The notes beneath the pieces were generated by a model. That model saw nothing but the letters and a program-made list of their open reading frames with translations, ran no database searches and had not been told where the DNA came from. Of a stretch of DNA of 33,258 bases, positions 1,014 through 30,400 are shown piece after piece. How positions within the stretch are numbered: the stretch's first letter is position 1; each line of letters opens with the position of its first letter. This DNA is from Flavipsychrobacter sp. (GTDB lineage: Bacteria > Bacteroidota > Bacteroidia > Chitinophagales > Chitinophagaceae): positions 947-34,204 of the forward strand of contig JANINW010000062.1 of NCBI GenBank assembly GCA_024508935.1, given 5' to 3'. Position numbers and translations under genes: made by a program.

Positions 1014-1045
1014 AAGCCCAATCTTTCGATTGAGCTTTTCTTTTT
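1014..1045 (-). terminator. Intrinsic terminator, probably the original one of tRNA-Pro
   Basis: The stem AAGCCCAATC (1014-1023) pairs with GATTGAGCTT (1028-1037) around a TTTC loop. The single non-Watson-Crick position is C.A on the plus strand but G.U in a minus-strand transcript, and a run of A follows on the left (T-run in the minus transcript). It therefore works leftward. It lies directly beyond the tRNA-Pro 3'-end fragment, as expected for the terminator of the uninterrupted tRNA gene before insertion. Confidence 0.75.
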
Positions 1046-1075
1046 TGTGTCGGGAAGACAGGATTCGAACCTGCG
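1043..1075. repeat. attR-like direct repeat (tRNA-Pro 3' end), distal end of the element
   Basis: These 33 nt are identical to 11160-11192. The copy contains the T arm and 3' acceptor strand of tRNA-Pro but no anticodon arm, so it is not a tRNA gene. The matching end inside the complete tRNA-Pro and the adjacent integrase make this the attachment core left after site-specific insertion. Confidence 0.88.
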
Positions 1076-1168
1076 CCAATCCGCGGGTCTGTAAACCATC
1101 TTCTAAACCAATATTTATAAGGCTCATTCAGCAATATTCTCGAGGACAAATATAGTAAATTAATTGTC

Positions 1169-1188
1169 TGGACTACCCATTGGACTAC
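1169..1188. repeat. Paired TGGACTAC direct repeats, left end
   Basis: TGGACTAC occurs at 1169-1176 and again at 1181-1188, starts 12 nt apart. The same octamer pair with the same 12-nt period lies at the right end (10996-11015). Position just inside both attachment cores suggests arm-type sites for the integrase or a directionality factor; that role is inferred. Confidence 0.7.
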
Positions 1189-1191
1189 TTC

Positions 1192-3090
1192 TCAACTACG
1201 TACATATTTTCTAAATGCTGTGACAATCTGAAATATAAAATATGCAATGACTATACGATTGAGGGCATCTACAAAATAGATTATACCAGGAGAACTTCTA
1301 ACGTCTACAATTCTATCTAAAATGTGAGCAGGATTTAGTAATTGTGGGTATATGTATAACCGCCCATAGAATATTTCAGAAAGGCTCAATCTGACATCCC
1401 TTAAAGATGTTGCAAATTTATCATGGGCTAGCTTAGTCGACGTAAGTAATGCAATCGGTATATACAGGATAAAATTTGAGATCAAAGATAACCAGGTCGC
1501 TTTCCACCAATTTTGCCCATAATCATTTGTTTGACCCAACCACAAAATAAATCTATCCTTATAGTTATATTTTTCCGCCGACGTGATATATTGCGCGTAA
1601 TACCACATTTCTCTCCTTTGAAACTCTAAAGCTAATGGTCGGTCGCCTTGCTTTTCCATCGCAAGCTTTAATTGCCGATAAACTTCTCGATTATTAAGTG
1701 TAAAGTCTAATCTTGTCTCCTCAGTCATTCCTTTTTTCCTTTTTATCTTAGCTATATCCAAAACCCCAAGTTTTTCGTTTGGGAACCACTTGCATTTGGA
1801 TGTTGAGATTTCAGAAACAATTGAATTAGTTATAATAACTCTGTCAAACGATGCAAAATCTGTTTGAAAGAACTGGGTATCACCTAGATTGGTCGCATGT
1901 ACAAACATTTCGCTTGAACTCATTGTCAACTTCTCGCCTTCTGAAATTAAGTCTAACATTTTAGGTTGTTCAATTTGAATTGGAACAGCAATCATTCTTC
2001 TGCTTCTGACCTTAGCATTATGCACAACAAACCACGTTGTAAATGACGCTCTTACGTTTGAAAATACTATTTGCGCTCTATTTAGGAAATTGGTGATTTC
2101 GATCTTGTTAAACCACATATTCTCGAACACGAAATCGGCATTGGCATTAAAATTGGACAATTCCAAAAGACCTACGTCAATATTTCTAAATACTATATTC
2201 CCTTTTAATGTAGGACTTGCGTTAACTCTAATAGAATGTACAATTGGTTTCAATTCGAAAGTATCCTTAACATCAATATCTGCAAAGAAACCATTGCTAA
2301 AATTGCAGTTTGCGATATAAAAACTCTTTATAGTATTCGGCGATGTACCACGACTTCTAAAAGTCACAAAAAAGTTATCTCTATATTCGCCCCCACTTAA
2401 CGAAAGAAATCCCCCGATATCGTTGTTAAAGAAACGTGACTCCTTGTGATAGACGCCGTCAATTAAAAGAAGAGAACCAGAAAACATAGAATTCTCGATT
2501 TCTATGCGCTTTTTAAACTCATTACTGGCGAGAAGCAAGTTATTAATTTTTGAATCATCTATTGAAAAGTTGCAATCGAATGTATTTTTCTTGAGGTCAA
2601 ATTGCTTACCAATTTCAATCAGTTGGAAACCGCAAAAGCTTTTAATAGTTGAATTTTCAACAGAGAGCTTACCGTTTGGAACTTCAATTTTAATAAAATC
2701 TAACCCAAGGTCAAATTGACAATTGCTTAACACTAAGTTGTCCAATACTTTCCCTTCACGAAAAAAAACAGCACCGCGATGAATACATTGGCCAAAGAAA
2801 ATTGAATATGAATGCCTAACAGGTGCTATTCTGCTACCAGTAACATCAAAATTGCTGAACGATACGGTCTTTTCAAAAATACAGTCAATAAATTTTATTC
2901 CAGAATGAAAATCTAATTCACTAAATATTACCTCATCTTGAAAAATACAGTTTTTGAAAGTTAGCCAATCCTTGTTATAGTCTTCTCCTCGAAAAACAAC
3001 TTGGTCGGCAACTACCAAACCCGTTATTTCCTCGGAAGAGGTGTGGCCTTTTACCAAAGGCAGAAGATAGTCAACAAACTTGGTTACCAT
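1192..3090 (-). CDS. Pentapeptide-like beta-helix protein with C-terminal membrane anchor
   Basis: The protein has 632 residues. Residues about 20-440 are a long series of short strands with repeating hydrophobic/Cys-Phe spacing (for example FKNCIFQDEVIFSELDF), typical of degenerate pentapeptide or right-handed beta-helix repeats. A helical linker follows (EVYRQLKLAMEKQGDRPLAL), resembling the C-terminal region of membrane-bound pentapeptide proteins. Two membrane segments come at about 531-552 and 602-627, separated by some 50 residues with no K+-channel filter motif. The start ATG at 3090 begins directly with the first repeats, and no signal peptide is seen, so the helix is probably cytoplasmic. 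It is island cargo next to the left attachment site, transcribed alone. The function is unknown; an effector that damages or gates the membrane is one guess. The gene call is firm. Confidence 0.85.
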   Translation of the reverse strand: MVTKFVDYLLPLVKGHTSSEEITGLVVADQVVFRGEDYNKDWLTFKNCIFQDEVIFSELDFHSGIKFIDCIFEKTVSFSNFDVTGSRIAPVRHSYSIFFGQCIHRGAVFFREGKVLDNLVLSNCQFDLGLDFIKIEVPNGKLSVENSTIKSFCGFQLIEIGKQFDLKKNTFDCNFSIDDSKINNLLLASNEFKKRIEIENSMFSGSLLLIDGVYHKESRFFNNDIGGFLSLSGGEYRDNFFVTFRSRGTSPNTIKSFYIANCNFSNGFFADIDVKDTFELKPIVHSIRVNASPTLKGNIVFRNIDVGLLELSNFNANADFVFENMWFNKIEITNFLNRAQIVFSNVRASFTTWFVVHNAKVRSRRMIAVPIQIEQPKMLDLISEGEKLTMSSSEMFVHATNLGDTQFFQTDFASFDRVIITNSIVSEISTSKCKWFPNEKLGVLDIAKIKRKKGMTEETRLDFTLNNREVYRQLKLAMEKQGDRPLALEFQRREMWYYAQYITSAEKYNYKDRFILWLGQTNDYGQNWWKATWLSLISNFILYIPIALLTSTKLAHDKFATSLRDVRLSLSEIFYGRLYIYPQLLNPAHILDRIVDVRSSPGIIYFVDALNRIVIAYFIFQIVTAFRKYVRS

Positions 3091-3222
3091 ACTTTAAAAT
3101 ACAAAAAACAAACAAAAGCAAGCCTTAAAGCGGAATGACTGTAATGTAATGAAAGGAATGTAGCTGCGAGTGCTAATGGCTGGGGTGGCCTGGGAGCGAA
3201 TGCGAAGGGACACACAGTGAGA

Positions 3223-3370
3223 GCCTTTTTAGAGGCATTATTGTACTCAATAATAAGCGTGGCGCTGTGCCAATAAAAAGGCTTGAACGCAGCCTATTAG
3301 CTACGCAGGCGAGCACTAACAATAAGCAGCGGGTGGATGTAGTAATCTGCTGTTAGCCTTGTGCCTAGCC
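3223..3370. other. Densely folded non-coding block between cargo genes (in the 3091-3573 gap)
   Basis: The 483-nt gap holds no credible ORF but many inverted repeats. GCCTTTTTA (3223-3231) pairs with TAAAAAGGC (3274-3282) and encloses ATTATTG/CAATAAT (3237-3243/3248-3254, 4-nt loop). AGGCT/AGCCT (3279-3283/3291-3295) competes with the outer stem. A second domain nests GCAC/GTGC (3313-3316/3361-3364), TAAC/GTTA (3317-3320/3352-3355) and AGCAG/CTGCT (3325-3329/3347-3351), with a flanking GGC/GCC. It could be an RNA, a folded single-stranded recombination site or an origin; nothing decides between these. Confidence 0.55.
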
Positions 3371-3573
3371 ACAGTTTACTACAGACACAGGAGCTGCGAC
3401 GAATGAGGGCAAATGACTTGCAAATATTGTGACAGACTGCGATAGCACCCTTTAGGGCATTACTTCTCCTTTACTACCATTTTAAAGACATTAGATACAG
3501 TAAAGGTGTAGTAATGGTCTGGCGGAATATTTGCTCATGCAGCCCGAATGAGACCTTTTAACCTGCATCAAAA

Positions 3574-4314
3574 CTATTTCCAATTAGGATAATCTATTAG
3601 ATGGATTAATTCTTCTAATGCAATCCGCAAGTCATCTTTTATGTTGTTTAAATCGGTCTGACGTGCAATATAGCGTCTATTATGAGCACTTAAATCTCCC
3701 ATTTTTTTCAAATTCGGCAAACTACTCTTTGCATTTCGCCCCACATTCCATGTATTTTCTGCCTTAAATAAATCTATTAAATCACTCAAGTAATAAAAGT
3801 TGCCACTATTATTTTTGACCTTGGACGAAATGCCATGCTTCTCAAAAGTTTCAATAATTAAAACCTCAAGCAATTTCCGAGTCATTACACTGCATGCGTC
3901 GTACAACCCTTGGTCATAGCAAACAGCGGCTTGGGTTGCTATTGCTTTTAAATACCCTCTTGTGTTGTCGAATAATTCTGCAGGAAAATAACTATTGCTA
4001 GGGATTATGACCTTGGGTGCATTTACAATATTATCAATTGCAGCTTTTTTATTACGCTCCAAATGATAAAGTCCTTTTTGGATTATAAATTTGGGAGGTT
4101 TGTTTTTCAGTATCTTTGAATTGATTGAAAGGTACTGTGGTATATTGCTATATTTTTTGATTTTGAGTTCATCAAAGCACTCGTCTATGTCCTTAGCTTT
4201 TATCCCTTGATTCCCCTTAACCACAGTCAGATAATAAACAAAGAAATCAACTTTGCTACCAGCCGGTAGAGAATCAAAATCTTTTACCGTTGAAATAAAA
4301 TGCTCTAAACTCAT
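3574..4314 (-). CDS. DUF4145-like protein, second gene of a coupled pair
   Basis: The protein has 246 residues. Residues about 1-90 (SLEHFISTVKDF, then VDFFVYYLTVVKG) form a winged-helix-like helical domain that also occurs twice in the upstream protein. Residues about 125-240 resemble DUF4145: a helix with Y-x2-GLYDACSVMTRKLLEV, a pair of hydrophobic helices, then LKKMGDLSAHNRR and a final helix EELIHLIDY. DUF4145-type domains are small helical bundles often found in restriction and other defence loci; no catalytic residues are known to me. Its ATG overlaps the TGA of the zinc ribbon gene (ATGA, 4311-4314), so the two are translationally coupled and probably form a complex. The gene is certain and its role is not known. 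Confidence 0.85.
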   Translation of the reverse strand: MSLEHFISTVKDFDSLPAGSKVDFFVYYLTVVKGNQGIKAKDIDECFDELKIKKYSNIPQYLSINSKILKNKPPKFIIQKGLYHLERNKKAAIDNIVNAPKVIIPSNSYFPAELFDNTRGYLKAIATQAAVCYDQGLYDACSVMTRKLLEVLIIETFEKHGISSKVKNNSGNFYYLSDLIDLFKAENTWNVGRNAKSSLPNLKKMGDLSAHNRRYIARQTDLNNIKDDLRIALEELIHLIDYPNWK

Positions 4315-5504
4315 TTAGCTATCTTTTTATTCCAAGCTTTAATTTGATTATTTCCTATTATTGTAGTTCTAATTCCGGCACTTTTTATTTCAATCCATCC
4401 CGTTCGGCTAGCAGTATTTCTAACAGTCTGAGGCAGATTTTCCGACACCCTTAAATCAAGGACATCGTAACAAGTGTAAATATGATTGAATGTAATCTCT
4501 GTTATTCCTAAAGTCTCCTGTAGATAAAACACAAAAAGTAAATTCCGTTCTTGATCACTTTTCGGTGAATATCTGGCTAAAAACGATTCTAGGCTTTCTT
4601 TCCCGCTTGGTTCAAAATCTATATTGGTTAATCTCTTCAAACCTTTTCCTCCATTGGAAGCTCTTTTAGGTGTAACATTTTTGTCTTCATCGGTATTGTT
4701 GTCTTTTTTACCTTTAGATGTAGTTCTTTGTCTAGGAGTTGCACTGCTAGTCCTTCCTATAATTTCCTTTGCTTTATCTATGCCAGCACCTAAAATCGAA
4801 AACTCATCAGTCAAAGGATTAATATAACCGCCTTGTACTGCTCTATTCATATACATGGTCAAATTCTTTCGTGTAGATTTGTCGTATCTACCCGACTCCT
4901 TATACCTGTTCACAATATCCTCGCGAGTAAATGTATCTTGACCAAAATTAGAGGCGTAGAAGGCATAAACAACAATCCATTCTGCTTCCGAACTTGGTAG
5001 GTTTTTAATTGCTACAGCTTTTAACGTTTGGAATTGTTGGTTTTTTTCAGAAGGTGCAGTGGACGTCGAATTCTGCGGGGAATCGTTTGCGACTCCGTTT
5101 ATAACTTCTGCCTCTTGAACACTATTAATATTCTCATCTAATTGATTTATATCGCCGCTGCTTGAACCATTCCCTAATAAATTCACACTAGGCATTCCCT
5201 TTTTACTTAGGTAGGCATCTCTCAAAATATTGGACAAATCTTTTCCAACGGCATCACTAAAAGTTGCTTCAATAATTCTGTCATTTACAGTCTCATGTAG
5301 CCTGAAGGTGTTTGTATTTTGTTGTGCAGCAGTTTTCGCTTGTTCGCTTTTGGGGGTTCCACAATTAATACAGCCTACATAATCTTTTTCCAATAAGGCT
5401 CCACATTCTTTGCATTTAAATTGAGATAGGCACCCACCACAGAAGTATCCAACGGCTGGTAACGGCTTGGAGCAATTTGAGCAAAATTGTTGGCTTGTGT
5501 CCAT
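4311..5504 (-). CDS. Double zinc ribbon protein with two copies of the shared helical domain
   Basis: The protein has 397 residues. The N-terminus carries four zinc-binding CxxC knuckles (CSNC, CGGC, CKEC, CINC) within residues 8-50, a double zinc ribbon. A low-complexity polar linker follows. Residues about 170-250 (AEWIVVYAFYASNFG, EDIVNRYKESG) and about 305-395 (SLESFLARY, LLFVFYLQETLG) are two copies of a winged-helix-like domain also found at the N-terminus of the downstream protein. A Lys/Asp-rich linker lies between them. The gene is the first of a two-gene unit, coupled by an ATGA overlap. It starts about 520 nt from the divergent promoter of the non-coding RNA at 6061. I do not recognise the family; nucleic-acid binding is an inference from the ribbons and winged-helix-like parts. 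Confidence 0.85.
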   Translation of the reverse strand: MDTSQQFCSNCSKPLPAVGYFCGGCLSQFKCKECGALLEKDYVGCINCGTPKSEQAKTAAQQNTNTFRLHETVNDRIIEATFSDAVGKDLSNILRDAYLSKKGMPSVNLLGNGSSSGDINQLDENINSVQEAEVINGVANDSPQNSTSTAPSEKNQQFQTLKAVAIKNLPSSEAEWIVVYAFYASNFGQDTFTREDIVNRYKESGRYDKSTRKNLTMYMNRAVQGGYINPLTDEFSILGAGIDKAKEIIGRTSSATPRQRTTSKGKKDNNTDEDKNVTPKRASNGGKGLKRLTNIDFEPSGKESLESFLARYSPKSDQERNLLFVFYLQETLGITEITFNHIYTCYDVLDLRVSENLPQTVRNTASRTGWIEIKSAGIRTTIIGNNQIKAWNKKIAK

Positions 5505-6022
5505 TGTAATATTTATTAGTCGTAAGTATATGTAAAATACAAGATGAAAATAACTTCTTTACTACGTATAAAATCTGTAGTTCAATGTTGACCATCAGGT
5601 CACAACAACTACTAACAATACTTCTTATTTCATTACTACTATTAAAGACAATGTAAATTTACAGGTTGGTACGATTTTTAACAACCGTTTTTAAACGGTT
5701 GACTTTTCAAGATTTTTTTCTATAAATCTATGTGTAGGGGGATGACATCATCACGACTATCGTATAGGAGGGTATGAAATGGGGTCCCTTCGTCTCTCAT
5801 ATACGTACAACTTACTAACCCATCTAAATTTCACGGCTTAGAATTCAGCAATAACCTTTTTAGTTAAAGCTATTAAATTTATTATGCTGTACATAATCAC
5901 CCAAGTTATAAAAATGAGCTATAAACCCTGCCATGATTACATGGTGCTGTAAATTACTGTTACGTAACCGTCTGGTGAGTAACCTAACAGGTTAAACTAT
6001 TATAAGCAGCAACAAATATATT
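5505..6022. other. Long intergenic leader, no gene seen
   Basis: There is no credible ORF. CAACCGTTT (5682-5690) and AAACGGTTG (5693-5701) form a perfect 9-bp hairpin with a 2-nt loop and T-rich flanks. It could terminate or shape a transcript, or be a dyad operator. The 11-mer TGGTGAGTAAC occurs at 5973-5983 and again at 6110-6120. AACCT/AGGTT forms a short dyad near 5981-5993. The segment separates the divergent zinc ribbon gene and the 6061 RNA, so it probably holds the promoter of the former, which I could not place. Confidence 0.4.
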
Positions 6023-6054
6023 TTTGGAAATTTAATTGTTATTATATATATTTG
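6023..6054 (+). promoter_or_regulatory. Bacteroidota-type promoter of the 6061 RNA
   Basis: TTTG at 6023-6026 and TATATTTG at 6047-6054 match the -33 TTTG and -7 TAnnTTTG elements used by the primary sigma factor of this phylum. The gap of 20 nt is typical. The start would be at about 6060-6062. No ORF follows for the next 500 nt on this strand. Confidence 0.68.
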
Positions 6055-6060
6055 CCATAT

Positions 6061-6562
6061 AACAGTATCTCTCCTTGGTATCAAAGGTAATACGCCAAAT
6101 GCGTTCGAATGGTGAGTAACTGGAAACAGATCAACCCCATTCTAGAAGTCGGGTAGTAAGTGCGGCCTTGTAATAATAGGTAACCATAGCGCCCAGGTTC
6201 CCCGATCGTTACCGAAACAGTTTTTATAATAAGATTATCACTGGTTAGCATGTGCCTACAGTTATAGCAGATGTTATAGGGCTGAAGAAAGTTGAAGTTA
6301 ACCAGAGTTATTGTTGGAGGAGTCCTCAATAACGTAAGGCTTAAAACGAGGTAATCGAAACGTAAGAATAATAGGTTGAACTATTCAACAGGTAGAGTAA
6401 AACCCTATAGGGGACTTGTTATGCTTAATAGAGATGATATTTGCGCCTACCTACAGAGGTAATATACTGGCAATTTTTTTATCTAGTCAGTTTAGTCAGA
6501 ACCTATATAGAGTTACTGACTGACCAATAATAAAACAACCCCAATATAGGGGTTGTTTTTTT
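6061..6562 (+). ncRNA. Putative structured non-coding RNA of about 500 nt
   Basis: The unit has a promoter (6023-6054), no plus-strand ORF, and a strong terminator (6532-6562). In between are many perfect stems: ACGC/GCGT (6092-6104), GGTAAC/GTTACC (6179-6184/6208-6213), CTGGTTA/TAACCAG (6241-6247/6299-6305) and GTTATTG/CAATAAC (6307-6313/6327-6333). Further on are GTTGAA/TTCAAC (6375-6380/6384-6389), the palindrome CCCTATAGGG (6403-6412), TACCT/AGGTA (6448-6452/6457-6461) and AGTCAGT/ACTGACT (6485-6491/6515-6521). CTGGTTA/TAACCAG encloses CCTA/TAGG. It does not match any RNA family I can recall (not RNase P, tmRNA or a complete group II intron: no domain V). Its neighbours are the zinc ribbon/DUF4145 pair (divergent) and DUF5131 (convergent). 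The direction follows the promoter and terminator; the function is unknown. Confidence 0.6.
6532..6562. terminator. Strong bidirectional terminator
   Basis: AAAACAACCCC (6532-6542) pairs perfectly with GGGGTTGTTTT (6549-6559) over an AATATA loop, followed by more T on the plus strand. It ends the rightward 6061 RNA. The leading A residues also give a U tail to the leftward DUF5131 transcript, whose stop is at 6564. Confidence 0.88.
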
Positions 6563-6563
6563 G

Positions 6564-7376
6564 CTATTGAGGCTCAGCCACCTGAGGAAACTCTCTTATT
6601 TGAAGTGATTGAGGAAATCTCTGGAAGTCATCACCATGAAGGTTACTAATGAATTCAGTCTTGGAAACAAAGGAGCCTATACCCTGTTTAGCAAGGTGAG
6701 TACCCATCTGCTTTACAAACACCTTAGCAGAACTATGACCTTGAATGTCATGCACTGCTTTTTCTATCCAATCTACTTTACAAGGCCTAAATATGTACTT
6801 ACCTGTTAAGTTTCCACTTTCACCACCGAAAATCACCCAATCCATCTTTTGAATAGGATAGCTACTATCTGCTGACATGCTCAAAAAATCAACTTCTTCC
6901 AAAAGAGGTTCTGCACTGATAAATCTCAATTTGGCAGGTATATTGGCCAAAGTCTCAACTCTATGAAAGTTCTTCTGATTCTCAACAGTAACCCCTAACC
7001 ATACGTTCTCATATCCACTACCCCAATCTGTTGGTAAACAGTGCTTAATTCTCTCAGGCCTTTTAGTGAGTATTTGCCAAGTATGCTGAGGGGTTTTCTT
7101 TATAACCTCCCAGGCATCTTCTCTCCAGCCATCTGCTTCTTCAATAAAAAAATCGCTCATGCTACAAGTGAAAATCATTCTCCCTTCCTGATCATACAAA
7201 GGTTTATGAAAATACTCATCGCTTGTCCGTCTGACTAAAGAACCATCTTTACCATCCTTCTCTAAAATTCTATGCATATAACAGTATTTACAGCCTTCTG
7301 ATACTTTTTTGCAACCGATCCAAAAATTATGGGTATCGGTGGTCCATTGTATTTTACTGTTCTCCATTTTGATCAT
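6564..7376 (-). CDS. Phage Gp37/Gp68-type (DUF5131) three-Cys protein
   Basis: The protein has 270 residues. It begins IQWTTDTHNFWIGC and has the family's CX6CX2C cluster (Cys22, Cys29, Cys32: GCKKVSEGCKYCYMHR), which resembles an iron-sulfur or metal-binding site of radical-SAM-like proteins. Other family signatures are FTCSMSDFF, TKRPERI, NVWLGVTVENQ, RFISAEPLLE and VIFGGESG. These match the Gp37/Gp68 family found on phages and islands; the biochemical reaction is not established. The usual three-Cys-motif partner (TcmP) gene is absent here. The frame overlaps the ATPase gene upstream; starting at the second ATG (7367) shortens the overlap from 23 to 14 nt, and I cannot decide between them. 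Translation is probably coupled to the ATPase. Confidence 0.9.
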   Translation of the reverse strand: MIKMENSKIQWTTDTHNFWIGCKKVSEGCKYCYMHRILEKDGKDGSLVRRTSDEYFHKPLYDQEGRMIFTCSMSDFFIEEADGWREDAWEVIKKTPQHTWQILTKRPERIKHCLPTDWGSGYENVWLGVTVENQKNFHRVETLANIPAKLRFISAEPLLEEVDFLSMSADSSYPIQKMDWVIFGGESGNLTGKYIFRPCKVDWIEKAVHDIQGHSSAKVFVKQMGTHLAKQGIGSFVSKTEFISNLHGDDFQRFPQSLQIREFPQVAEPQ

Positions 7377-8376
7377 TTTTAGTTGTTATTGATTTGTTTT
7401 GATCTGGACAGTCAGTTTGATTATCTGGTATTTGACTGGCCGTCTTCTTCCTTTTTTCGATAAACCATGATTTGCATGGCACTTTCTTTCCAGGATATTT
7501 TCCGATTAGCTGCTTTATAGCATCTTCATAAGATTTACCCTGTTTCATTTGCGCCATTTCAGCCAACCAAAATGTTTCATCGAATTTTGCCTTTCCCTGT
7601 GCCAAATAAGGGCCTTTGACAATATCCCTGCGATGTTTAAAGATTAAATGCTTATCATCTAGTTCCAGTACACGGGTCGTCCCTTTGTCTTTTCTACTTA
7701 ATCCGTTAGCTTTTACAACGGTTAGTAGTCTTTCATTTTCATCGTTGCCGTTTCTCAGTTCTATTACTGCCCTGCACTTTGCCTCAAAGGACTGGGAACC
7801 ATTCACCTTATTTTTATCTGGGCTATGATGTTCCGAATGCTTAACATTGTGGTGTAAAAGCAGAATGGCACAATTATACTTGTTTGCCAGTTCACTTAGC
7901 TTTTTAAGATTGTTCCTTACATCAGGAGCATTGTTCAGGTTACCGGAGAATGTATCCGCCCATCCATCTATAACAATTAGATCAAACTTATCGGCTGTTA
8001 ATAAGGATTCCAATTTTGTAGGCATATCTTCATTGTCAAAAGAGAACGATAGGGCCTCGAGTTTATCACCTATTCCTAAACCTTTTACTTGTTTTCCTAA
8101 CACCGCTCTTGTACTTATCTCATCGTCTTCGGTTGCTACATAACAGACCTTTGCCTGACTGGTATGTAATGACGACCCTAAAAACGTCTTTTTATTATCT
8201 GCTACACTTAATGCTAGTTGACGCGCCAACGTAGATTTACCACAATCGGAGGGCCCTACTAAAGCCGATATATTGTTTTTAGGAATTAACCCCTCTACCA
8301 GCCATAAGTCAGACTGCATCGGTGCCGAAAGTGCAAGTAATTCCTTTACTGTATGAGTTTTGAATTTATTACTCAT
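7354..8376 (-). CDS. RepA-like AAA/RecA-fold ATPase
   Basis: I choose the ATG at 8376 (340 residues, MSNKFKTHTVKELLAL), preceded by an A/T-rich leader, over an in-frame ATG at 8472 whose extra 32 residues look non-coding. Walker A is GPSDCGKST (about residue 42). Walker B is FDLIVIDGWAD, followed by AILLLHHNVK and a NKVNGSQSFEAKCRAVIEL segment. This is the pattern of RepA/AAA_25 hexameric helicase-type ATPases encoded by plasmids and integrative elements. The C-terminal 80 residues are Lys-rich and may bind DNA. It is likely the replication or maintenance ATPase of the element, expressed with the overlapping DUF5131 gene. No primase is nearby. A cluster of palindromes lies directly upstream. 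Confidence 0.88.
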   Translation of the reverse strand: MSNKFKTHTVKELLALSAPMQSDLWLVEGLIPKNNISALVGPSDCGKSTLARQLALSVADNKKTFLGSSLHTSQAKVCYVATEDDEISTRAVLGKQVKGLGIGDKLEALSFSFDNEDMPTKLESLLTADKFDLIVIDGWADTFSGNLNNAPDVRNNLKKLSELANKYNCAILLLHHNVKHSEHHSPDKNKVNGSQSFEAKCRAVIELRNGNDENERLLTVVKANGLSRKDKGTTRVLELDDKHLIFKHRRDIVKGPYLAQGKAKFDETFWLAEMAQMKQGKSYEDAIKQLIGKYPGKKVPCKSWFIEKRKKTASQIPDNQTDCPDQNKSITTKNDQNGEQ

Positions 8377-8420
8377 ATAATTTTTTTTTAAAATGAAAAA
8401 ATAATTTACTACGGCTTCTG

Positions 8421-8573
8421 CATACCCATTGGATATGTTGCGCAATGGCGCAATGATTAATGTACAAGGCATATTAATGCCTGCCGTACTGTACTTGTTT
8501 ATGGGATATACGTAGCTAAACGGTTATGATCCTTTCATAACCTAATACTTACTAAGTTCAGTAGTGCTGAACT
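8421..8573. promoter_or_regulatory. Cluster of short palindromes upstream of the RepA-like gene
   Basis: Within 153 nt there are TTGCGC/GCGCAA (8438-8443/8448-8453), GGCAT/ATGCC (8468-8472/8477-8481), GGTTATG/CATAACC (8522-8528/8536-8542) and AGTTCAG/CTGAACT (8555-8561/8567-8573). All are perfect, with loops of 4-7 nt; CATA/TATG also brackets 8421-8436. The whole 8377-8912 gap has no credible gene. Different arm sequences argue against one repeated operator. A replication origin, transfer origin or folded 5' leader of the ATPase mRNA are possible. Confidence 0.5.
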
Positions 8574-8912
8574 CAGAAATTATGTATGTGTATCTTAGAT
8601 TTGATTTTGTTAGTAACGTGCTTTGTCTTTCGCGCACGACATCAACGATACGGATTGATGAGTTTATTTTAGAACCTCAATAGGTGTGCCAACTAAGTAG
8701 ATTATACCGATATGGCAGGAATTATAATCATGAGTTCAATTTTTGCATATGCAGTATGTGACAGATGACATAACTAATGTCAGTTTTGCACAAAGAAATG
8801 CCCAAAAGGTAGAATTAATTAAATAGAACTGCTTTTTTATCTTTACGTAAATATTTGCTTATAGAGAAAACATAAGTGACATAAATGGTTTTGCATTTCG
8901 CAAACTGTTCCT

Positions 8913-9058
8913 GTATCTGAAAAGTCGAAAAATTCAATGTACTACTGGAAGGTTTAGCAAATGCTCAGGTTACGCCTGGGCGTTGCTTTGCTGAGTAGTA
9001 CAGGGCTTCGACTCCCTCAGATACCAGTGAATGTCAATCGCTCAGGTATCTTTTTTTT
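8913..9058 (+). promoter_or_regulatory. Nested-hairpin leader with overlapping terminator (riboswitch- or attenuator-like)
   Basis: A single long imperfect hairpin is built of perfect helices in nested order. They are GTATCTGA/TCAGATAC (8913-8920/9017-9024), AGTCGAA/TTCGACT (8923-8929/9007-9013), GTACTACT/AGTAGTAC (8939-8946/8994-9001), AGCAA/TTGCT (8956-8960/8983-8987) and TGCTCAGG/CCTGGGCG (8962-8969/8975-8982, two wobbles). The 3' strand of the outer helix overlaps the 5' strand of a terminator, AGATACC/GGTATCT (9019-9025/9045-9051), which is followed by eight T. The two cannot form together, so the leader could switch transcription of the lipoprotein gene that starts 20 nt after the T-run. 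It also has tRNA-like touches (TTCGACT as a T-loop, CCA at 9024-9026). No known riboswitch class is recognised. Confidence 0.65.
9019..9058 (+). terminator. Intrinsic terminator inside the leader of the lipoprotein gene
   Basis: AGATACC (9019-9025) pairs with GGTATCT (9045-9051). AGTGA/TCGCT extends the helix inside, and T at 9051-9058 follows. It stands only 20 nt before the ATG at 9078, so expression of that gene needs read-through or a refolded leader. Confidence 0.8.
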
Positions 9059-9077
9059 AACCAATAAAACCAATAAT

Positions 9078-9434
9078 ATGAAGTACTCTACATTTTTTCT
9101 GGCTTTTCTGCTGCTTACCTCTTGTAAAAAAAATAATGACAATTCATCAGGTATAGGTAATAATGTATCGACTATTGAATATTCTTTAATTAGTAATCAT
9201 AATAATAACTGCTCAGGTTACTATTGGGATGCTGATGGGAAACAACAATCTGTTATTGACATCAGATCGGGATGGGCACAAAAGATCACAGCAAGAAGTG
9301 GGAATACAGCGCATTTCACAATTCAAAGCAATACTTTGGGAGATACCTTAAAGGCTTACATAAAACTAGATGGAAAACTTGTCGCGGCAGATAGTGGACA
9401 TACTTCAGCCAATGTGCAATACACAATTAAATAA
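9078..9434 (+). CDS. Small lipoprotein, possibly MmpS-like fold
   Basis: The start is the ATG at 9078, which gives a signal peptide MKYSTFFLAFLLLTSC with lipobox LTSC and then the Bacteroidota-style KKNNDNSS spacer. The frame is open upstream to 8961, but that stretch is the hairpin leader. The mature protein is about 100 residues with alternating strands (IEYSLISN, AHFTIQSN, LKAYIKLDGKLV, NVQYTIK). This pattern resembles the small immunoglobulin-like MmpS-type lipoproteins common in this phylum; that assignment is by pattern only. It forms a two-gene unit with the membrane protein 18 nt downstream. Expression is probably governed by the terminator in its leader. As island cargo its function is unknown. 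Confidence 0.8.
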   Translation: MKYSTFFLAFLLLTSCKKNNDNSSGIGNNVSTIEYSLISNHNNNCSGYYWDADGKQQSVIDIRSGWAQKITARSGNTAHFTIQSNTLGDTLKAYIKLDGKLVAADSGHTSANVQYTIK

Positions 9435-9452
9435 CTAATAAAATTATACATC

Positions 9453-9635
9453 ATGAGACTTATTGGCTATTTAGCACAAATAGTAGCTACCATATGGATG
9501 GGAATACTAGCATGGAATTGGATAGAACCAGAAAGCTTCCTTCAAGGCTGTGGATGGTTTATTGTATGGGGGCTAGGTTCAGGGCTGGCAAGTATTGTTA
9601 TTGGAATAACAGTTAAAACTCTTGAAGCAGACTAA
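9453..9635 (+). CDS. Small two-helix membrane protein
   Basis: The protein has 60 residues with two hydrophobic segments (LIGYLAQIVATIWMGILAW and FIVWGLGSGLASIVIGITV) separated by a short turn with WIEPESF. It starts with ATG 18 nt after the lipoprotein stop and ends in a charged tail (KTLEAD). Length and layout fit a small integral membrane protein, perhaps an immunity or holin-like protein, but nothing specific is recognised. It is likely co-transcribed with the lipoprotein and ends before a terminator shared with the convergent integrase gene. Confidence 0.65.
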   Translation: MRLIGYLAQIVATIWMGILAWNWIEPESFLQGCGWFIVWGLGSGLASIVIGITVKTLEAD

Positions 9636-9689
9636 GGCATTTGCAACGACCATATAGAAATCTAAAGCCAACTGGTTGCGATAAAATGA

Positions 9690-9722
9690 AAACTCCCCAG
9701 TACAAACCAGGGAGCTTTAATC
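9690..9722. terminator. Probable terminator between convergent genes
   Basis: CTCCC (9693-9697) pairs with GGGAG (9710-9714). A residues stand before the stem and T-rich sequence follows, so it may serve both the rightward small genes and the leftward integrase (stop at 9737). The stem is short. Confidence 0.5.
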
Positions 9723-9736
9723 AAGGGGCTATCTCT

Positions 9737-10960
9737 TTATTGACATCTTTCTAGCTTGGCTTTTAATTCCTGCATATCGGCTTTTATTTTGTTTTCCAAT
9801 ACCTTGGCATATACTTGTGTAGTGCTTAATTTAGTATGCCCCAACATTTTTGATACCGTTTCTATCGGAACACCATTACTTAATGTAATTGTTGTAGCAA
9901 ATGTGTGTCGTGCTAAATGAGTAGTAAGATTCTTACTTATACCTGCAAGCTTCTGTATCGTCTTTAAGGCTTTATTCATCTTCTGATTGGACAATACAGA
10001 TATCAACGGTAATCCTGCTTTACTATTAGGAAGATATTTGCTTATGATATGCTGAGCCCGAGGTAATAGGGGCACTACAAACATCACTTTGGTTTTTTGG
10101 CGAGTCATTCTGATCCAGACAGATTTATCTGAACTGGCAGAGATGTGTTCCCTAGTCAAGGTCTTAACATCGCTGTAAGACAATCCCGTGTAACACTGCA
10201 ATAGAAAAGTATCCTTGACCCGTTCCAGGGATTGTGAAAGTTGTAGGAAAAAAATTTGATGTACTTCTTCCATTGTCAATGCTGACTTTGTTACCGGTGT
10301 AAATTCCAATTGGTATTTTGACATTGGATTGGAAGTTATATACCCTAACCTGATAGCGTAATTAATGATCTTTCGAAGTCTTTGAATCTGCTTATTTGCA
10401 CCGTTTACATGGCATTTCTTTGATGTGGTTAGGTAGCTAAAGAATGACTCACAGAATTTGTAGTTAACTGCACTAAGTTCTATATCTCTTTTATTACTGA
10501 ATAAAGGCACAAATTCCTTTAAATACTTTAGTGTGGTTTTGTAGTTCTTATAACTTCCATAACTATATTTTATTCCTACATTGCTTTCAAAGTGTGTGTT
10601 GTGTTCCTCGGCAGTGGCAATAAGAGTATGAATCTCTTTCAATGATTCTCCCTTATACATTTTACGAATGTTAGCGATTGTAACAATCTCACCGCTGATG
10701 TACAGTTGAGATATTACCTGATTAATTTCGCCCTTAATAATTGTCAGCATATTGTTTACATTATTAACGTCATTACACCTGATAACCCTTTGAGCCTTAT
10801 CATCCCACTTGGTTATATCTATATACTGACCGGATGGAATTTCCATTTTTTCTTTGTTGAGACTTATTCTAATATAAATGGGTGCTTTGTTTTGTTTATT
10901 AATGCGGTATTTCCTTAAATAGAAGGATATATTATATTTTGGAATATTCATTTTATGCAA
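9737..10960 (-). CDS. Tyrosine recombinase/integrase of the element
   Basis: The protein has 407 residues in the usual Bacteroidota layout: an N-terminal arm-DNA-binding domain (NISFYLRKYRI to about 75), a SAM-like core-binding domain (about 120-220) and a catalytic domain. Catalytic residues seen are Lys in TRQKTK (about 289), His348 and Arg351 in HLARH, His375 in LGHTKL and the nucleophile Tyr384 in TTQVYAKV. The Arg-I position in TGLSYSDV is Ser261. The same replacement is known in the CTnDOT integrase IntDOT and relatives, so the enzyme is likely active. The start could also be the ATG at 10951 (MNIPKY). It lies about 200 nt from the intact tRNA-Pro, with the putative arm sites in between, and should catalyse insertion into and excision from that tRNA. 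Confidence 0.95.
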   Translation of the reverse strand: MHKMNIPKYNISFYLRKYRINKQNKAPIYIRISLNKEKMEIPSGQYIDITKWDDKAQRVIRCNDVNNVNNMLTIIKGEINQVISQLYISGEIVTIANIRKMYKGESLKEIHTLIATAEEHNTHFESNVGIKYSYGSYKNYKTTLKYLKEFVPLFSNKRDIELSAVNYKFCESFFSYLTTSKKCHVNGANKQIQRLRKIINYAIRLGYITSNPMSKYQLEFTPVTKSALTMEEVHQIFFLQLSQSLERVKDTFLLQCYTGLSYSDVKTLTREHISASSDKSVWIRMTRQKTKVMFVVPLLPRAQHIISKYLPNSKAGLPLISVLSNQKMNKALKTIQKLAGISKNLTTHLARHTFATTITLSNGVPIETVSKMLGHTKLSTTQVYAKVLENKIKADMQELKAKLERCQ

Positions 10961-10975
10961 TTTTTGAAATTATGA

Positions 10976-11037
10976 GTAGCTGAATGAGTAAAAAATGGAC
11001 TACCGTGTGGACTACAATTGAGGTAGATTTCAGCTAC
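10976..11037. repeat. 8-bp inverted repeat enclosing paired TGGACTAC repeats, right end
   Basis: GTAGCTGA (10976-10983) and TCAGCTAC (11030-11037) are perfect inverted repeats. Between them TGGACTAC occurs at 10996-11003 and 11008-11015, starts 12 nt apart, as at the left end (1169/1181). The location between integrase gene and attachment core fits recombinase or regulator binding sites, possibly with autoregulation of the integrase gene. Confidence 0.68.
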
Positions 11038-11126
11038 TTTTTAGGGTGGGATTACTGACTGAAACCAATAGAAATATATGCTGGAGAAAGCTCTGTAACC
11101 TTTACCAGTAAAGGGTTTTAGGCAAT

Positions 11127-11160
11127 AAAAAAAGCCCAATAGTATTTCTACTACTGGACT
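11127..11160 (-). terminator. Element-borne replacement terminator for tRNA-Pro
   Basis: AGCCCAATAG (11133-11142) and CTACTGGACT (11151-11160) form a 10-bp stem with two wobbles that are G.U only in the minus-strand transcript. The A-run on its left becomes the U tail. It shares AAAAAAGCCCAAT with the terminator at 1014-1045. It belongs to the element and gives the occupied tRNA gene a terminator again. Confidence 0.75.
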
Positions 11161-11192
11161 TTTGTGTCGGGAAGACAGGATTCGAACCTGCG
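11160..11192. repeat. attL-like direct repeat inside tRNA-Pro
   Basis: The 33 nt are identical to 1043-1075. They cover the tRNA-Pro 3' acceptor strand and T arm (11167-11192) plus seven nucleotides beyond. Identity breaks at 11193, inside the tRNA variable region. Confidence 0.88.
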
Positions 11193-11240
11193 ACCCCCTG
11201 GTCCCAAACCAGATGCGCTACCGGCCTGCGCTACTTCCCG
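11167..11240 (-). tRNA. tRNA-Pro(TGG), insertion target
   Basis: The 74-nt cloverleaf has acceptor CGGGAAG/CTTCCCG with discriminator A, a D arm with GCGCAGGCCGGTAGCGC, anticodon stem TCTGG/CCAGG with loop TTTGGGA (anticodon TGG), and T arm CAGG-TTCGAAT-CCTG. CCA is not encoded. It is the intact copy at the right end of the island and is rebuilt exactly by the attachment core. Confidence 0.96.
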
Positions 11241-11285
11241 AACTACACGTTGACAGTTTCCTGTCAATTCCTTTTATATTTTCTG

Positions 11286-11374
11286 CGGTGAGGGCGGGAT
11301 TCGAACCCGCGGTACGCTTTGACACGTACGACAGTTTAGCAAACTGTTGGTTTCGGCCACTCACCCACCTCACC
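11286..11374 (-). tRNA. tRNA-Ser(GCT)
   Basis: The 89-nt class II tRNA has acceptor GGTGAGG/CCTCACC with discriminator G, anticodon stem ACAGT/ACTGT with loop TTGCTAA (anticodon GCT), a long variable arm (CGTACG...CGTACC) and T arm GCGGG-TTCGAAT-CCCGC. It lies 45 nt upstream of tRNA-Pro on the same strand and is probably co-transcribed. The 11375-11608 stretch beyond it shows nothing further. Confidence 0.95.
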
Positions 11375-11608
11375 AGTGGTTTCTACCGCTTTTAGCAAGT
11401 ATCGAGCTTACCACCCCGTGTTTGGGGACTGCAAAGATAGCCGTATTGTGGAAATTTCAAAAGATTTTTTCGCTGCTTTTTTATTCGCCTGAAAGACTTG
11501 CTGGTAAAGGCTTTTCAAACAGTTTATTTTTAATTTTTATACAACATTGGTTTACGAAAACAGCATTTTGTTTTAATAAGGTTCGGTACATATGCTAAAA
11601 AACAAACG

Positions 11609-12643
11609 CTACGCCTTCTTACCTGCAAGTTTTTCAATAGCCTTGCCGAATGCATTTATATCATCAGCAGTTGTATCGAACGAGCACATGAGCCGTGCTT
11701 CGTTGGTCGCTTCTTTCCAGATGTAGAAAGGCAATAATTCCTGCAGAGATTTATTCCACTCGCGCGGCAACGTGGCAAATACTCCATTTGCCTGCACGGG
11801 CTTCGTTATAGTCACCTGCATATACTGGCTTAATGTTTTCTGCAGCAATTGCGCCATTGCATTTGCATGAGATGCCTTTGTACGCCATAATTCGTCCTTT
11901 AGCATGGCCTCAAACTGCGCAGCTATAAACCGCGTTTTAGATGCCAGTTGCATAGACTGCTTATGCTTGTATGCTATCTGTCGCGCAAGTTCTTTATTAA
12001 ACACTACTACAGCTTCTCCAAACATCATTCCTGCCTTAGTACCGCCAAGCGATAATATATCGACCCCGGCGGCTGAACTAATATCTTTTAAAGCAAGGCC
12101 AGACCCGGCTGCAGCATTAAAAAAGCGCGAACCGTCCATATGCAGGTATAGGTCATTCTCATGCGCCAATTCAGCTATTGCTCTTATTTCGCCCGGCGTG
12201 TATACCGTTCCATATTCTGTAGCCTGTGTGATAGATACCAGCTTCGTTTGCGCATAATGCATGTCTCCTTTGCGTATCAAACGCTGCTGTATGGCATCGG
12301 GCGTTAGTTTACCTGTTTCGTCAGATGGCAAAGGAAAAAACCTGCACCCGGTAAAAGTTTCCGGAGCGGCAGATTCGTCGTTATAAATATGAGATATGTC
12401 TGCACATAAAACAGAATTGAATGACTGCGTGGCTGCACTGATGCTCAGTACATTGGCGCCTGTGCCGTTAAAGACGAAAAACACATCGCAATCCGTTTCA
12501 AAAACCTCTCGGAACAAGCGCGTGGTGCGGGCGCTAATTTCATCTGCACCGTAAGAGCGCGCATGTTCAATGTTTGCACGCTGCAAGGCTTCCATCATCT
12601 CCGGTAAAACACCTGCATAGTTATCGCTGGCAAAACTTTTCAT
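11609..12643 (-). CDS. Low-specificity L-threonine aldolase (PLP-dependent)
   Basis: The 344-residue protein has the beta-eliminating lyase/threonine aldolase fold (fold type I). It begins with the family N-terminus MKSFASDNYAGVLPEMMEAL. The substrate/PLP segment is FNGTGANVLSI, the Asp that holds the pyridine ring is in LYLHMDGSRFFNA, and the Schiff-base Lys is in SLGGTKAGMMFGEA. It cleaves L-threonine or allo-threonine to glycine and acetaldehyde in the cytoplasm. It resembles the FASDNYAG-type clade rather than E. coli LtaE. The gene is monocistronic, starts at ATG 12643, and is separated from the upstream peptidase gene by a strong terminator. Confidence 0.93.
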   Translation of the reverse strand: MKSFASDNYAGVLPEMMEALQRANIEHARSYGADEISARTTRLFREVFETDCDVFFVFNGTGANVLSISAATQSFNSVLCADISHIYNDESAAPETFTGCRFFPLPSDETGKLTPDAIQQRLIRKGDMHYAQTKLVSITQATEYGTVYTPGEIRAIAELAHENDLYLHMDGSRFFNAAAGSGLALKDISSAAGVDILSLGGTKAGMMFGEAVVVFNKELARQIAYKHKQSMQLASKTRFIAAQFEAMLKDELWRTKASHANAMAQLLQKTLSQYMQVTITKPVQANGVFATLPREWNKSLQELLPFYIWKEATNEARLMCSFDTTADDINAFGKAIEKLAGKKA

Positions 12644-27405: not shown

Positions 27406-30400
27406 TTAATATTTATACAACCATACGCGCATTAAAGATAACAACTGGTCAATTTTCAATGGCTTGGTTATATAATCAGACGCACCCGCTTCTATACATT
27501 TTTCCCTGTCTCCTTTCATGGCTTTTGCCGTTACTGCTATGATGGGAAGATTAGAGTTTTTATGTTCGCGGCGTATCTTTTGTGTTGTTTCATAACCGTC
27601 CATTTCAGGCATCATTATATCCATCAGCACCATATCTATATTGCTATGGTCGTTCAATATATTAATAGCTTCCTGCCCGCTTTCTGCTGTAATAGTATTG
27701 ATACTGTATTTTTCAAATGCCGTGGTCAGGGCGAAAAGATTACGTACATCATCATCTACCACCAATATATTCTTGGCGGCCAATACATCTTCTTTCAATC
27801 TCAGGTTTTCAATAATCTTTTTCTTTTCTGGTAGCAGGTCCTTATGGTTCAGGTGCAGGTGCATAATAGTTTCTTCCAGCAACAGGTCTATTGAATTCAC
27901 GCTCTTCAGTATCACCCTATTTGCATATTGTTTCAGTTGGGTTTTCTCTTTGTCCGAAAAATCCCTGGCTGAATAAATAATAATTGGCATCATCAGCATC
28001 TTACGCGCTGCGCTTATTTCCATGATAAAATCCAGCCCGCCTATATCCGGCAGCATATAGTCAACTATTACACAATCGTAATTATACTCGTGCATCAACC
28101 TGAGCGCGTCGGTTCCGGTAGCAGCGATAGTAATATCTATCAGGTTGCCGTTATCCAGCATTTTAGCTATTTGCGATGAATCAATTTCATTGTCTTCTAC
28201 CACCAGTACTTTCTTCGGAGTACGCAGATTAAACTCAGCAATATCACTGAACAAAAGTGTTAAAGCATCTGTCTTCAAAGGCTTTAAATGGAAACTACGC
28301 GCACCCCGCTTCATAGCCAGTATACGGTTCTCTTCGCCAGATATAAGATGCACCGGTATATGCCTGAAATTCATATCATTTTTAAACAGATCCAGTATTT
28401 TCCAGCCGCTCGCATCGGGTAGTTTTACATCCAGTGTCACAGCAACGGGCATATATTTGTTTACTAGTTCAAAAACATTACTGAAACCCGTAGCCACCAC
28501 CACTTTCAGGTTATGCTCATGTGCTTTGTCTATCATTATTTTGGCAAAGCGTATATCATCTTCTATCACCAATACTACCTTATCTGTGTTCAGGATATTG
28601 TTGCGGTCATCGCCGGCTTCGTTGATTATCTCATTGAGGCCTTCCATATCTCTTTCGGGCAGCTTGATCGTAGGTACACTTTGTATAGAAAGCTTTTCAT
28701 CGTTTTGTGCCAGTTCATACTCGCTGATGATGAGAGAGCTTTGCTTTTCCTTCTTAAGTATCTCAGCATTGTACTCAATAGGCAGGTATAGGGTAAATGT
28801 ACTTCCGCGTCCTGCTTCGCTTTCCAGTTCTATAGAACCGCCTAACAGGTCGGCCAGGCCACGACTGATAGACAAGCCCAGGCCGGTACCACCGTATTTA
28901 CGGCTGGTAGAACCTTCAGCCTGCTGGAATGCTTCAAATATGATGCTTTGCTTGTCCTTTGAAATACCAATGCCGGTATCCTTTATCTCAAATGCTACTA
29001 CCTGTTTTGCTTTGTCTAAGCTCGGCACATTGCCTTTCCAGGTTTTATTGGCTTCAAATACGCGGAGTTTAACTTCACCCTTATCCGTAAATTTAAAAGC
29101 ATTGGAAAGCAGGTTCTTTAATATCTGGTTCAGGCGCTGTATATCTGTTTCTATTATTTCCGGCAGGGTCTCGTCCAGTTCTATGCTAAAGCGCAGGTTT
29201 TTATTTTCAGACACGTGCTTGAAGGTGGTTTCCACAAATGAAGTGATCTCGTGGAAGCGCACATTGATAAAGTCTGCAGAGATATAACCTGACTCGATCT
29301 TGGAAAGGTCGAGGATATCATTAATAAGCTGTATCAGGTCATCGCCGCAACTGTGAATGGTTTTCGCATAACGTACCTGCTTTTCATTAAGGTTACCCTC
29401 GTGGTTCTCAAAAAGCTGTTGTGCCAATATCAGCAGGGAGTTCAGCGGAGTACGCAGCTCGTGCGACATGTTTGCCAGGAATTCTGATTTGTACTTCGAT
29501 GTAAGCTGCAATTGCTCTGCCTTTTCTTCCAGCGATTTACGGGCTTCTTCTACTTCCTTGTTCTTGTTCTCTACTTCTTCTTTTTGTTTTACCAGCAAGT
29601 GGGCTTTATCCTGTAGCTCTTCATTCGTTATCCTCAATTCATCTGTCAGCGATTGCGATTGTTCCAGCAGGTGCTCTGTTCTTGAGTTGGTCTCGATGGT
29701 ATTCAGCACTATACCGATACTTTCTGTAAGCTGACCCAGGAAGTCTAAGTGTGTTTCACTGAATACTTCAAATGAGCCCAGCTCAATTACCGCTTTGATC
29801 TCTTTTTCAAACAATACCGGCAGCACGATCAAATTCAATGGGGCAGCCTCGCCCAGCCCTGAATTTATTTTCACATAATCAGAAGGAACGTTGGTGAGTA
29901 ATATACGTTCTTTTTCCAAAGCACACTGTCCAACCAGCCCCTCACCCAGTACAAACTGCTTGCTGATATTCAGCTCATCTTTATAAGCGTATGCCGCAAA
30001 TAATTTCAGCATACTGCTTTCAAAATTCTCATCCTGCTCAAGGATGTAGAACATACCATATTGTGCATTTACCACCTGCGCCAGCTCAGACAGGATACGG
30101 CGTGTTACCGTATTCAGGTCTTTTTGTCCCTGCAGCATTTGCGTAAACTTAGCCAGGTTCGATTTCAGCCAGTCCTGCTCCTGGTTACGGAGTGTTGTTT
30201 CTTTCAGGTTGGCGATCATCTGGTTGATGGTATCTTTCAGTTCTTCTACCTCACCTTTCGCATCCACACGTATCATACGGGTAAGGTCACCTTTTGTTAC
30301 GGCAGAAGCCACTTCGGATATGGCGCGCACCTGCGTGGTAAGATTTTCCGCCAGCTGGTTCACGTTCTCTGTCAGGTTCTTCCATATACCCGATGCACCC

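Follow-up and report, generated by a model that had tools for sequence, protein, structure and literature searches.

A putative family of large structured RNAs in relatives of crAss-like phages and on chromosomal islands of Bacteroidota

The crAss-like phages form a very abundant phage group. The packaging RNA (pRNA) of phage phi29 is a structured phage RNA linked to packaging genes, the put and EAR antitermination RNAs are structured and lie at the start of a long transcription unit, and HEARO is the omega RNA of IscB. GOLLD and ROOL are described as large structured RNAs of phages and prophages that have no known protein partner or function, form nanocages as homo-oligomeric RNA and often lie near tRNA islands; according to the same text, profiles of GOLLD, ROOL and OLE are included in Rfam (PMC12286853). 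Here we report the computational analysis of a 33,258-nucleotide (nt) stretch of DNA from Flavipsychrobacter sp. (contig JANINW010000062.1; here called the window), in which positions 6060–6560 probably hold a self-contained, trans-acting structured noncoding RNA gene of a new family found in crAss-like phages and Bacteroidota islands. Homology, covarying helices (P1, P2/P3 and P4), a same-strand place upstream of the terminase and promoter boxes in about half of the members were established by computation. As judged from sequence, an RNA family that has no Rfam match is common to uncultivated crAssphage relatives (Crassvirales-related) and chromosomal islands.

The new RNA resembles GOLLD and ROOL in being large, structured, phage-borne and without a known protein partner. 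It differs from them in having no match in Rfam 15 and in being shorter (about 230–500 nt), and it lies upstream of a terminase gene in the phages or on integrase islands rather than in a tRNA island. Compared with phi29 pRNA, it has no Rfam match, occurs in another phage group and is linked to packaging by gene position only. It is larger than the put and EAR RNAs, stands alone with a terminator in the window and, again, lacks an Rfam match. The likeness to HEARO consists of an HNH gene that follows the RNA in two chromosomal loci (L008 and L239); this gene encodes a NUMOD4-HNH_3 protein, not IscB, the RNA has no Rfam match, and the Pfam families found in the window include no HNH gene.

An Rfam search, one of the checks proposed in the initial annotation, gave no family other than tRNA: at gathering score, Rfam 15 returned only tRNAs, elsewhere in the sequence, for the window and 11 phage loci (L106, L082, L109, L115, L118, L196, L172, L149, L189, L170 and L176). 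At relaxed E-values, L239 gave no match, L008 six weak ones that all miss the RNA core (E at least 0.78), and the window nine around the terminator, likewise weak, the best of which scores 31.4 bits where the gathering score is 60. A self-splicing intron was also considered and rejected, given the absence of any Rfam match but tRNA and the intergenic position of the window copy, with its promoter box and terminator. A search of literature titles and the starts of abstracts found no description of the RNA. Fremin and colleagues reportedly catalogued about ten thousand structured RNA candidates of phages and other viruses, and members of the family could be among them.

The initial annotation had described an unannotated structured RNA on a mobile island, some 500 nt long and equipped with a promoter and a terminator of its own. 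Direct reading, the open reading frame (ORF) list and a terminator scan bore out the promoter, the ORF-less stretch and the 11-base-pair (bp) terminator, and the homologues and their covariation upheld the structured RNA itself. The features discussed below are as follows.

1043–11192, no strand: integrative island of 10.15 kb carrying the RNA gene, bounded by perfect 33-bp direct repeats (1043–1075 and 11160–11192)
9737–10960, minus strand: tyrosine integrase of the island (PF00589, PF13102 and PF17293)
6023–6054, plus strand: Bacteroidota-type promoter, TTTG-20-TATATTTG, from the sequence and the excess of TAnnTTTG in members
6060–6560, plus strand: predicted RNA gene of about 500 nt, start inferred from the promoter and end from the terminator
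6107–6142, plus strand: helix P1 (6107–6112 with 6137–6142), enclosing a small hairpin; covariation in 19 sequences
6142–6210, plus strand: conserved core; model R1 at 59 bits, and covariation
6148–6153 with 6201–6206, plus strand: helix P2 of the core, enclosing P3
about 6159–6163 with 6189–6193, plus strand: helix P3 of the core
6166–6180, plus strand: CCUUGUAAUAAUAGG hairpin of the core, within P2
6221–6368, plus strand: long-range helix P4, from the fold of the window alone, covariation in 16 sequences and model R2
6221–6227 with 6362–6368, plus strand: outer P4, seven pairs covarying in 16 sequences
6233–6239 with 6350–6356, plus strand: inner P4, five pairs covarying in 16 sequences
6243–6303, plus strand: arm P5 inside P4 (6243–6249 with 6297–6303), predicted by the minimum-energy fold only
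6307–6333, plus strand: extra hairpin of the window copy, predicted by the fold only
6338–6351, plus strand: conserved block GGCUUAAAACGAGG, from phage sequences and L003
6409–6429, plus strand: 3′ element AGGGGacttgTTATGCTTAAT, with a like element in 29 of 32 members
6532–6559, plus strand: intrinsic terminator, 11-bp stem and T tail, from a sequence scan

The promoter boxes read exactly as TTTG at 6023–6026 and, 20 nt further on, TATATTTG at 6047–6054 (plus strand), the Bacteroidota promoter motif. A generic sigma-70 scan found promoters not in excess in the window (7 against 8.5 expected). The RNA gene is flanked on both sides by genes on the opposite strand, encoding a zinc-ribbon protein (4311–5504, minus) and a DUF5131 protein (6564–7376, minus), the latter matching the PADLOC candidate defence models PDC-M30B and PDC-M41B as well as phrog_2045. 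Between the zinc-ribbon gene and the RNA promoter lies a further 500 nt without a listed ORF (5505–6022); a 1,061-base query including this segment matched nothing in phages or plasmids. Elsewhere in the window, 27406–33255 encodes a very long protein (an ORF of 1,949 amino acids (aa) within the window) with many tandem repeats and, by eye, histidine kinase/response regulator-like parts.

The location on a mobile island is supported by the 33-bp direct repeat at a tRNA-Pro gene and by the tyrosine integrase. The repeat is the 3′ end of tRNA-Pro (11166–11240), which serves as the integration site. The island also carries genes for an AAA_25 ATPase and the DUF5131 protein. The window holds two tRNAs in all, at the island end, and no tRNA island lies beside the RNA.

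The plus strand of the RNA gene folds at −130 kcal/mol (z −2.50; 2 of 100 dinucleotide shuffles as good), and the minus strand gives a z of −1.12 (14 of 100). P4, with its AATAA/GAAAC internal loop, was predicted from the window's own sequence. Among the hairpins listed in the initial annotation, those of P1, P2/P3 and P4 are backed by relatives, and P5 and the extra hairpin remain predictions of the fold alone. Within the conserved block, all 13 phage sequences of alignment A11 have AGGCUnnAnACGG, from which the window differs by an A for the last G, and GTAAGGCTnAAAACGnGG is common to the window and L003. The 3′ element consists of GGGG, 5–9 nt and a URU-like tail; it occurs in 29 of 32 members (absent in L106, L118 and L240), a count made with a loose pattern that was written after seeing examples and has no control. 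A hairpin with a GAAnUAAC-like loop occurs twice in L239, as CCCUGAAAUAACAGGG in P3 and as CCUGAAGUAACAGG downstream, about 130 nt after the core start; its counterpart in the window is 6166–6180. This recurrent module may mediate docking or pairing between RNA copies.

That the locus is instead an unannotated protein gene, sense or antisense, is a reading to which we assign practically no weight. In its favour, the window contains an antisense ORF of 82 aa (6081–6329), and antisense frames are open over the core in many members. Against it, every frame of both strands is closed in at least one of the 32 members examined, and in L003 none stays open over the core; the core also covaries, and coding on either strand was rejected. 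Furthermore, the ORF list holds no sense ORF of at least 60 aa inside the window RNA, and stops interrupt all three sense frames within 6142–6210.

A blastn search with a 566-base query matched 6 of 294 genomes of the window's family, namely the window's own genome, four with matches of 29–42 bases only, and G097, the first homologue, at 67% identity over 252 bases. The G097 copy lies on the minus strand of L003/L008 behind an upstream box (TACCTTTG), on an island distinct from that of the window, which carries VapE-like and PLD-like genes as well as a tyrosine integrase. A pattern scan of genome contigs gave five stretches, of which only L025 is genuine, being the L003 contig (JAJNBJ010000023.1, a Flavipsychrobacter metagenome-assembled genome). 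Searched over 106 loci, a two-sequence profile detected the viral contigs L106 (E 4e-8) and L082 (E 1.3e-5), whose likeness extends beyond the scan pattern; L080 (E 0.022) and L101 were discounted as members. Of the first viral pattern scans, one was empty and one gave 11 stretches, none of which showed likeness beside the pattern itself, and another, with 52 stretches, contained no family member. Three further scans of IMG/VR yielded more members, including the 97-kb contigs L122 and L123; in one IMG/VR scan, all 15 stretches matched model R1, eight of them being its training set and the others close copies.

R1 is a covariance model of a 72-position core built from eight phage sequences, without the window and without L003. 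In a test set of 45 sources (456 kb; the window and 44 of 126 loci, excluding the training loci), its best match was the window (59 bits, E 9.9e-12), followed by L008 (51.7 bits, E 7.4e-10); the third match, of 24 bases (21.8 bits, E 0.037), lies in a locus that a scan for the same pattern had selected. R1 finds the RNA at E 8.3e-11 when run on the genome of the window. The full-length model R2 was trained on 13 phage sequences, nine of them first found as weak R1 matches (E 0.0048 to 0.64), so that their R2 scores are high by construction; the support for these nine is their single strand and a like distance from the terminase. R2 matches L008 at E 0.0032 and the window weakly (6124–6409, 14.7 bits, E 0.054). 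The window contains the P2/P3 core as recognized by the phage-only R1, the long-range helix P4 and the 3′ element.

Blastn with eight family members against GenBank phages found no homologue, the only matches being of 34–40 bases (E 0.3–0.5) and discounted. Eleven named phages related by terminase gave no R2 match and two discounted R1 matches (E 0.56 and 0.74), and the window query matched no plasmid. From the GenBank and named-phage results, the family appears, within the sequences tested, to be restricted to some chromosomes and to phages that have not been cultivated. Of 31 members, 15 carry an exact TAnnTTTG no more than 140 nt ahead of the core, against 2.2 expected, and 16 lack it (L238, where the contig ends, is left out). 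In the same 31 members, a simple downstream scan found a single terminator, that of the window, and misses the terminator-like hairpin and T run seen by eye after the RNA in L118.

Compensatory changes, proposed at the outset as the test of the stems, were found in P1, P2/P3 and P4, with counts of doubly changed cells above those of all shuffles. For P2/P3, in 33 distinct aligned cores drawn from 35 matches in 35 sources, 94.2% of cells are standard pairs (77.0 in shuffles), 13 of 16 pairs show changes on both sides, and 71 cells carry such changes, against 21.5 ± 3.6 in shuffles (0 of 500 as high) and 4–18 in slid controls; the alignment was fitted to the model and leans towards structure, related sequences inflate both-side counts, and the P3 hairpin has no letters in 8–12 of the 33 rows. 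A smaller set of 23 distinct rows, from which L082 5412–5467, a spurious match on the opposite strand (17.8 bits), is left out, gave 39 both-side cells against 11.1 ± 2.8 (0 of 500 as high), with both-side changes in 10 of 16 pairs (2 of 500 shuffles as high). P1 is 96.5% paired in 19 sequences, with 36 both-side changes against a shuffle mean of 11.4; in 16 sequences, outer P4 is 92.0% paired (35 against 9.6) and inner P4 95.0% (18 against 4.2), with 0 of 1,000 shuffles as high in each case and 21–68% pairing in slid controls. The P1 and P4 blocks were placed by hand from anchors (P1 in 19 and P4 in 16 of 27 sequences), which favours structure; the P1 count omits L106, L122, L126 and copies, and the P4 count omits close copies and the unplaceable L106, L118, L149, L172, L174, L176 and L184.

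To place the RNA in phage genomes, we used the best 80 of at least 544 viral terminase relatives, fetched by similarity to the terminases of three RNA-bearing phages. R1 matched 25 of these 80 loci at E 1 or less, and every match is on the terminase strand; six strong matches are contigs already in the collection (two in the training set), and 19 are weaker (E 0.0004 to 0.64). R2 matched 30 of the 80 at E 0.0017 or better, again all on the terminase strand, 21 of them outside the training set under their own locus and several being near copies, and the other 50 gave no R2 match at 0.0017; two further rows were not counted, one being an end fragment of 27 nt (E 0.04) and the other a match on the opposite strand (E 0.54). 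In the 30 loci, the terminase match lies 2.9–8.7 kb downstream of the RNA (median 3,115 nt). Where more than 3.5 kb of upstream sequence is present (43 loci), 28 have the RNA and 15 do not.

The RNA lies at a divergent junction in L118, L106 and L122. The genes that come after it in L118 encode terminase, portal and major head proteins, which match PHROG families for those functions; in L106 an Amidase_2 gene and then the terminase follow, and in L122 the terminase is on the same contig about 3.2 kb further on (locus L135). The L118 terminase matched 159 GenBank phage records, at 32–37% identity among the 40 matches listed; the nearest of these are crAss-like, and some others, from Flavobacterium phages, are not assigned to Crassvirales. 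By eye, the next start codon follows within some bases of the 3′ element in L173, L189 and L196, and a new TAnnTTTG-type promoter-like box follows the RNA in L170, L172 and L184. tRNAs in the L106, L109 and L115 loci are 2–7 kb from the RNA. The L106 terminase (9338–12637, 1,099 aa) has a long insertion relative to that of L118, which looks like an intein.

On chromosomes, with an E-value limit of 0.05, R1 detected the RNA in 11 of the 294 genomes that represent the window's family, spread over 8 of 101 genera, with G266 as the weakest match (E 0.004). An order sample of 328 genomes gave three (G000, G261 and, from another family, G331), and a phylum sample of 395 gave only the genome of the window; the samples overlap and were strictly filtered. 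Pfam confirmed a tyrosine integrase within about 7 kb of the RNA in six of the 11 family loci (the window, L008, L235, L237, L239 and L240); an integrase is unconfirmed in L236, L238, L241, L242 and L243, and L238, L242 and L243 are near contig ends. As far as the contigs reach, the ORF lists, from which some ORFs were compared with a family library, show no neighbour gene common to the chromosomal loci and no recognizable phage structural genes near them. The copies in L235 and L236 run towards genes on the opposite strand. In 2 of the 11 loci, the NUMOD4-HNH_3 endonuclease gene lies directly downstream on the same strand (L008 8796–9359, minus; L239 8416–8964, plus), possibly as a homing gene directed at the RNA locus. 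Type I restriction-modification genes lie near the RNA in L236 (6223–9465), L237 (8199–10727) and L008 (10439–11599, seemingly truncated). The truncated methylase gene beside the L008 RNA was considered as an interrupted, intron-bearing gene, but inspection by eye of three frames of 9300–10460 showed no remainder, and this reading was dropped.

The gene product would likely act as RNA and in trans, since the window copy has a terminator of its own and the genes flanking it lie on the other strand; the terminator-like hairpin of L118 and the new promoter-like boxes after the RNA in L170, L172 and L184 speak for the same. The RNA may be a control RNA of the element, as also proposed in the initial annotation; the phage homologues point to a role wider than the window's element. 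The RNA may, with less than even confidence, serve the phage at or near the late phase, as the phage copy opens a block leading to terminase, portal and, where seen, capsid genes; gene position is what suggests this late role, which is possible rather than probable. That the islands keep a copy to exploit or jam the same phage step is a conjecture that we consider doubtful, these three proposals being given in falling order of likelihood. Against action in trans, the RNA nearly reaches the next start codon in several phages (for example, L196 and L173), as a leader would; the sparse terminators in the scan (1 of 31), the members without an exact TAnnTTTG (16 of 31) and the weak R2 match to the window (E 0.054) likewise tell against our reading, as do the 50 terminase loci and the 11 named phages that gave no convincing match and the single genome found in the phylum sample. 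A serious but fairly improbable alternative is that the RNA acts in cis in the late operon of the phage, as a leader or as a processive antitermination RNA of the put/EAR kind, and that the copies on islands are stray: this would suit the same-strand position ahead of the terminase in 30 of the 80 loci and the start codons close behind the 3′ element in L173, L189 and L196, but it fits poorly with the terminator and the opposite-strand neighbours of the window copy, with the opposite-strand genes ahead of L235 and L236, and with the new promoter-like boxes after the RNA in L170, L172 and L184.

A trans-acting RNA would be compatible with a self-assembling, RNA-only oligomer of the GOLLD/ROOL sort, non-homologous to these, and we regard this special case, which overlaps the preferred reading, as distinctly unlikely. 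The RNA is large, multi-domain and borne by phages and islands, the inspected loci share no constant protein neighbour, and the loop module recurs in L239; GOLLD and ROOL are themselves phage and prophage RNAs that form nanocages (PMC12286853). The new RNA is, however, shorter, has no Rfam match and in the window has no tRNA island beside it. By analogy, it is best read as working like GOLLD and ROOL while lying outside those families. Hairpins formed in single-stranded DNA, as part of a packaging, replication or recombination site, would agree with the nearby terminase, and such sites are common to phages and integrative islands, but promoter boxes precede the element on the RNA strand, the att repeat lies elsewhere, and frequent G–U pairs (21 of 33 at one P2 pair) favour RNA, making a DNA element very unlikely. 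Even less probable is the idea, raised in the initial annotation, that the RNA belongs, together with DUF5131 or the neighbouring protein pair, to a cargo system: adjacency in the window and the PADLOC matches of DUF5131 speak for it, but the other loci inspected (L008, L235–L243 as far as contigs reach, and the phages) have, judging from the ORFs that were scanned, other neighbours, so the RNA is hardly a component of either.

The novelty is the RNA family; the genre, large phage RNAs of unknown function, already has GOLLD and ROOL. Our analysis adds a large structured RNA family, without an Rfam match, in crAss-like phage relatives and mobile islands of Bacteroidota. In one scenario, which we think unlikely as a whole, the large RNA ahead of the late genes would serve a step of the crAss-like phage, such as late gene control, packaging or assembly, and the islands would have captured it to parasitize or block the phage. 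The occurrence of one RNA in both phages and islands makes it testable whether islands take up phage RNAs, beyond proteins and packaging sites, to exploit or block phages. If the capture reading is true, the RNA would be an RNA-level counterpart of phage satellites.
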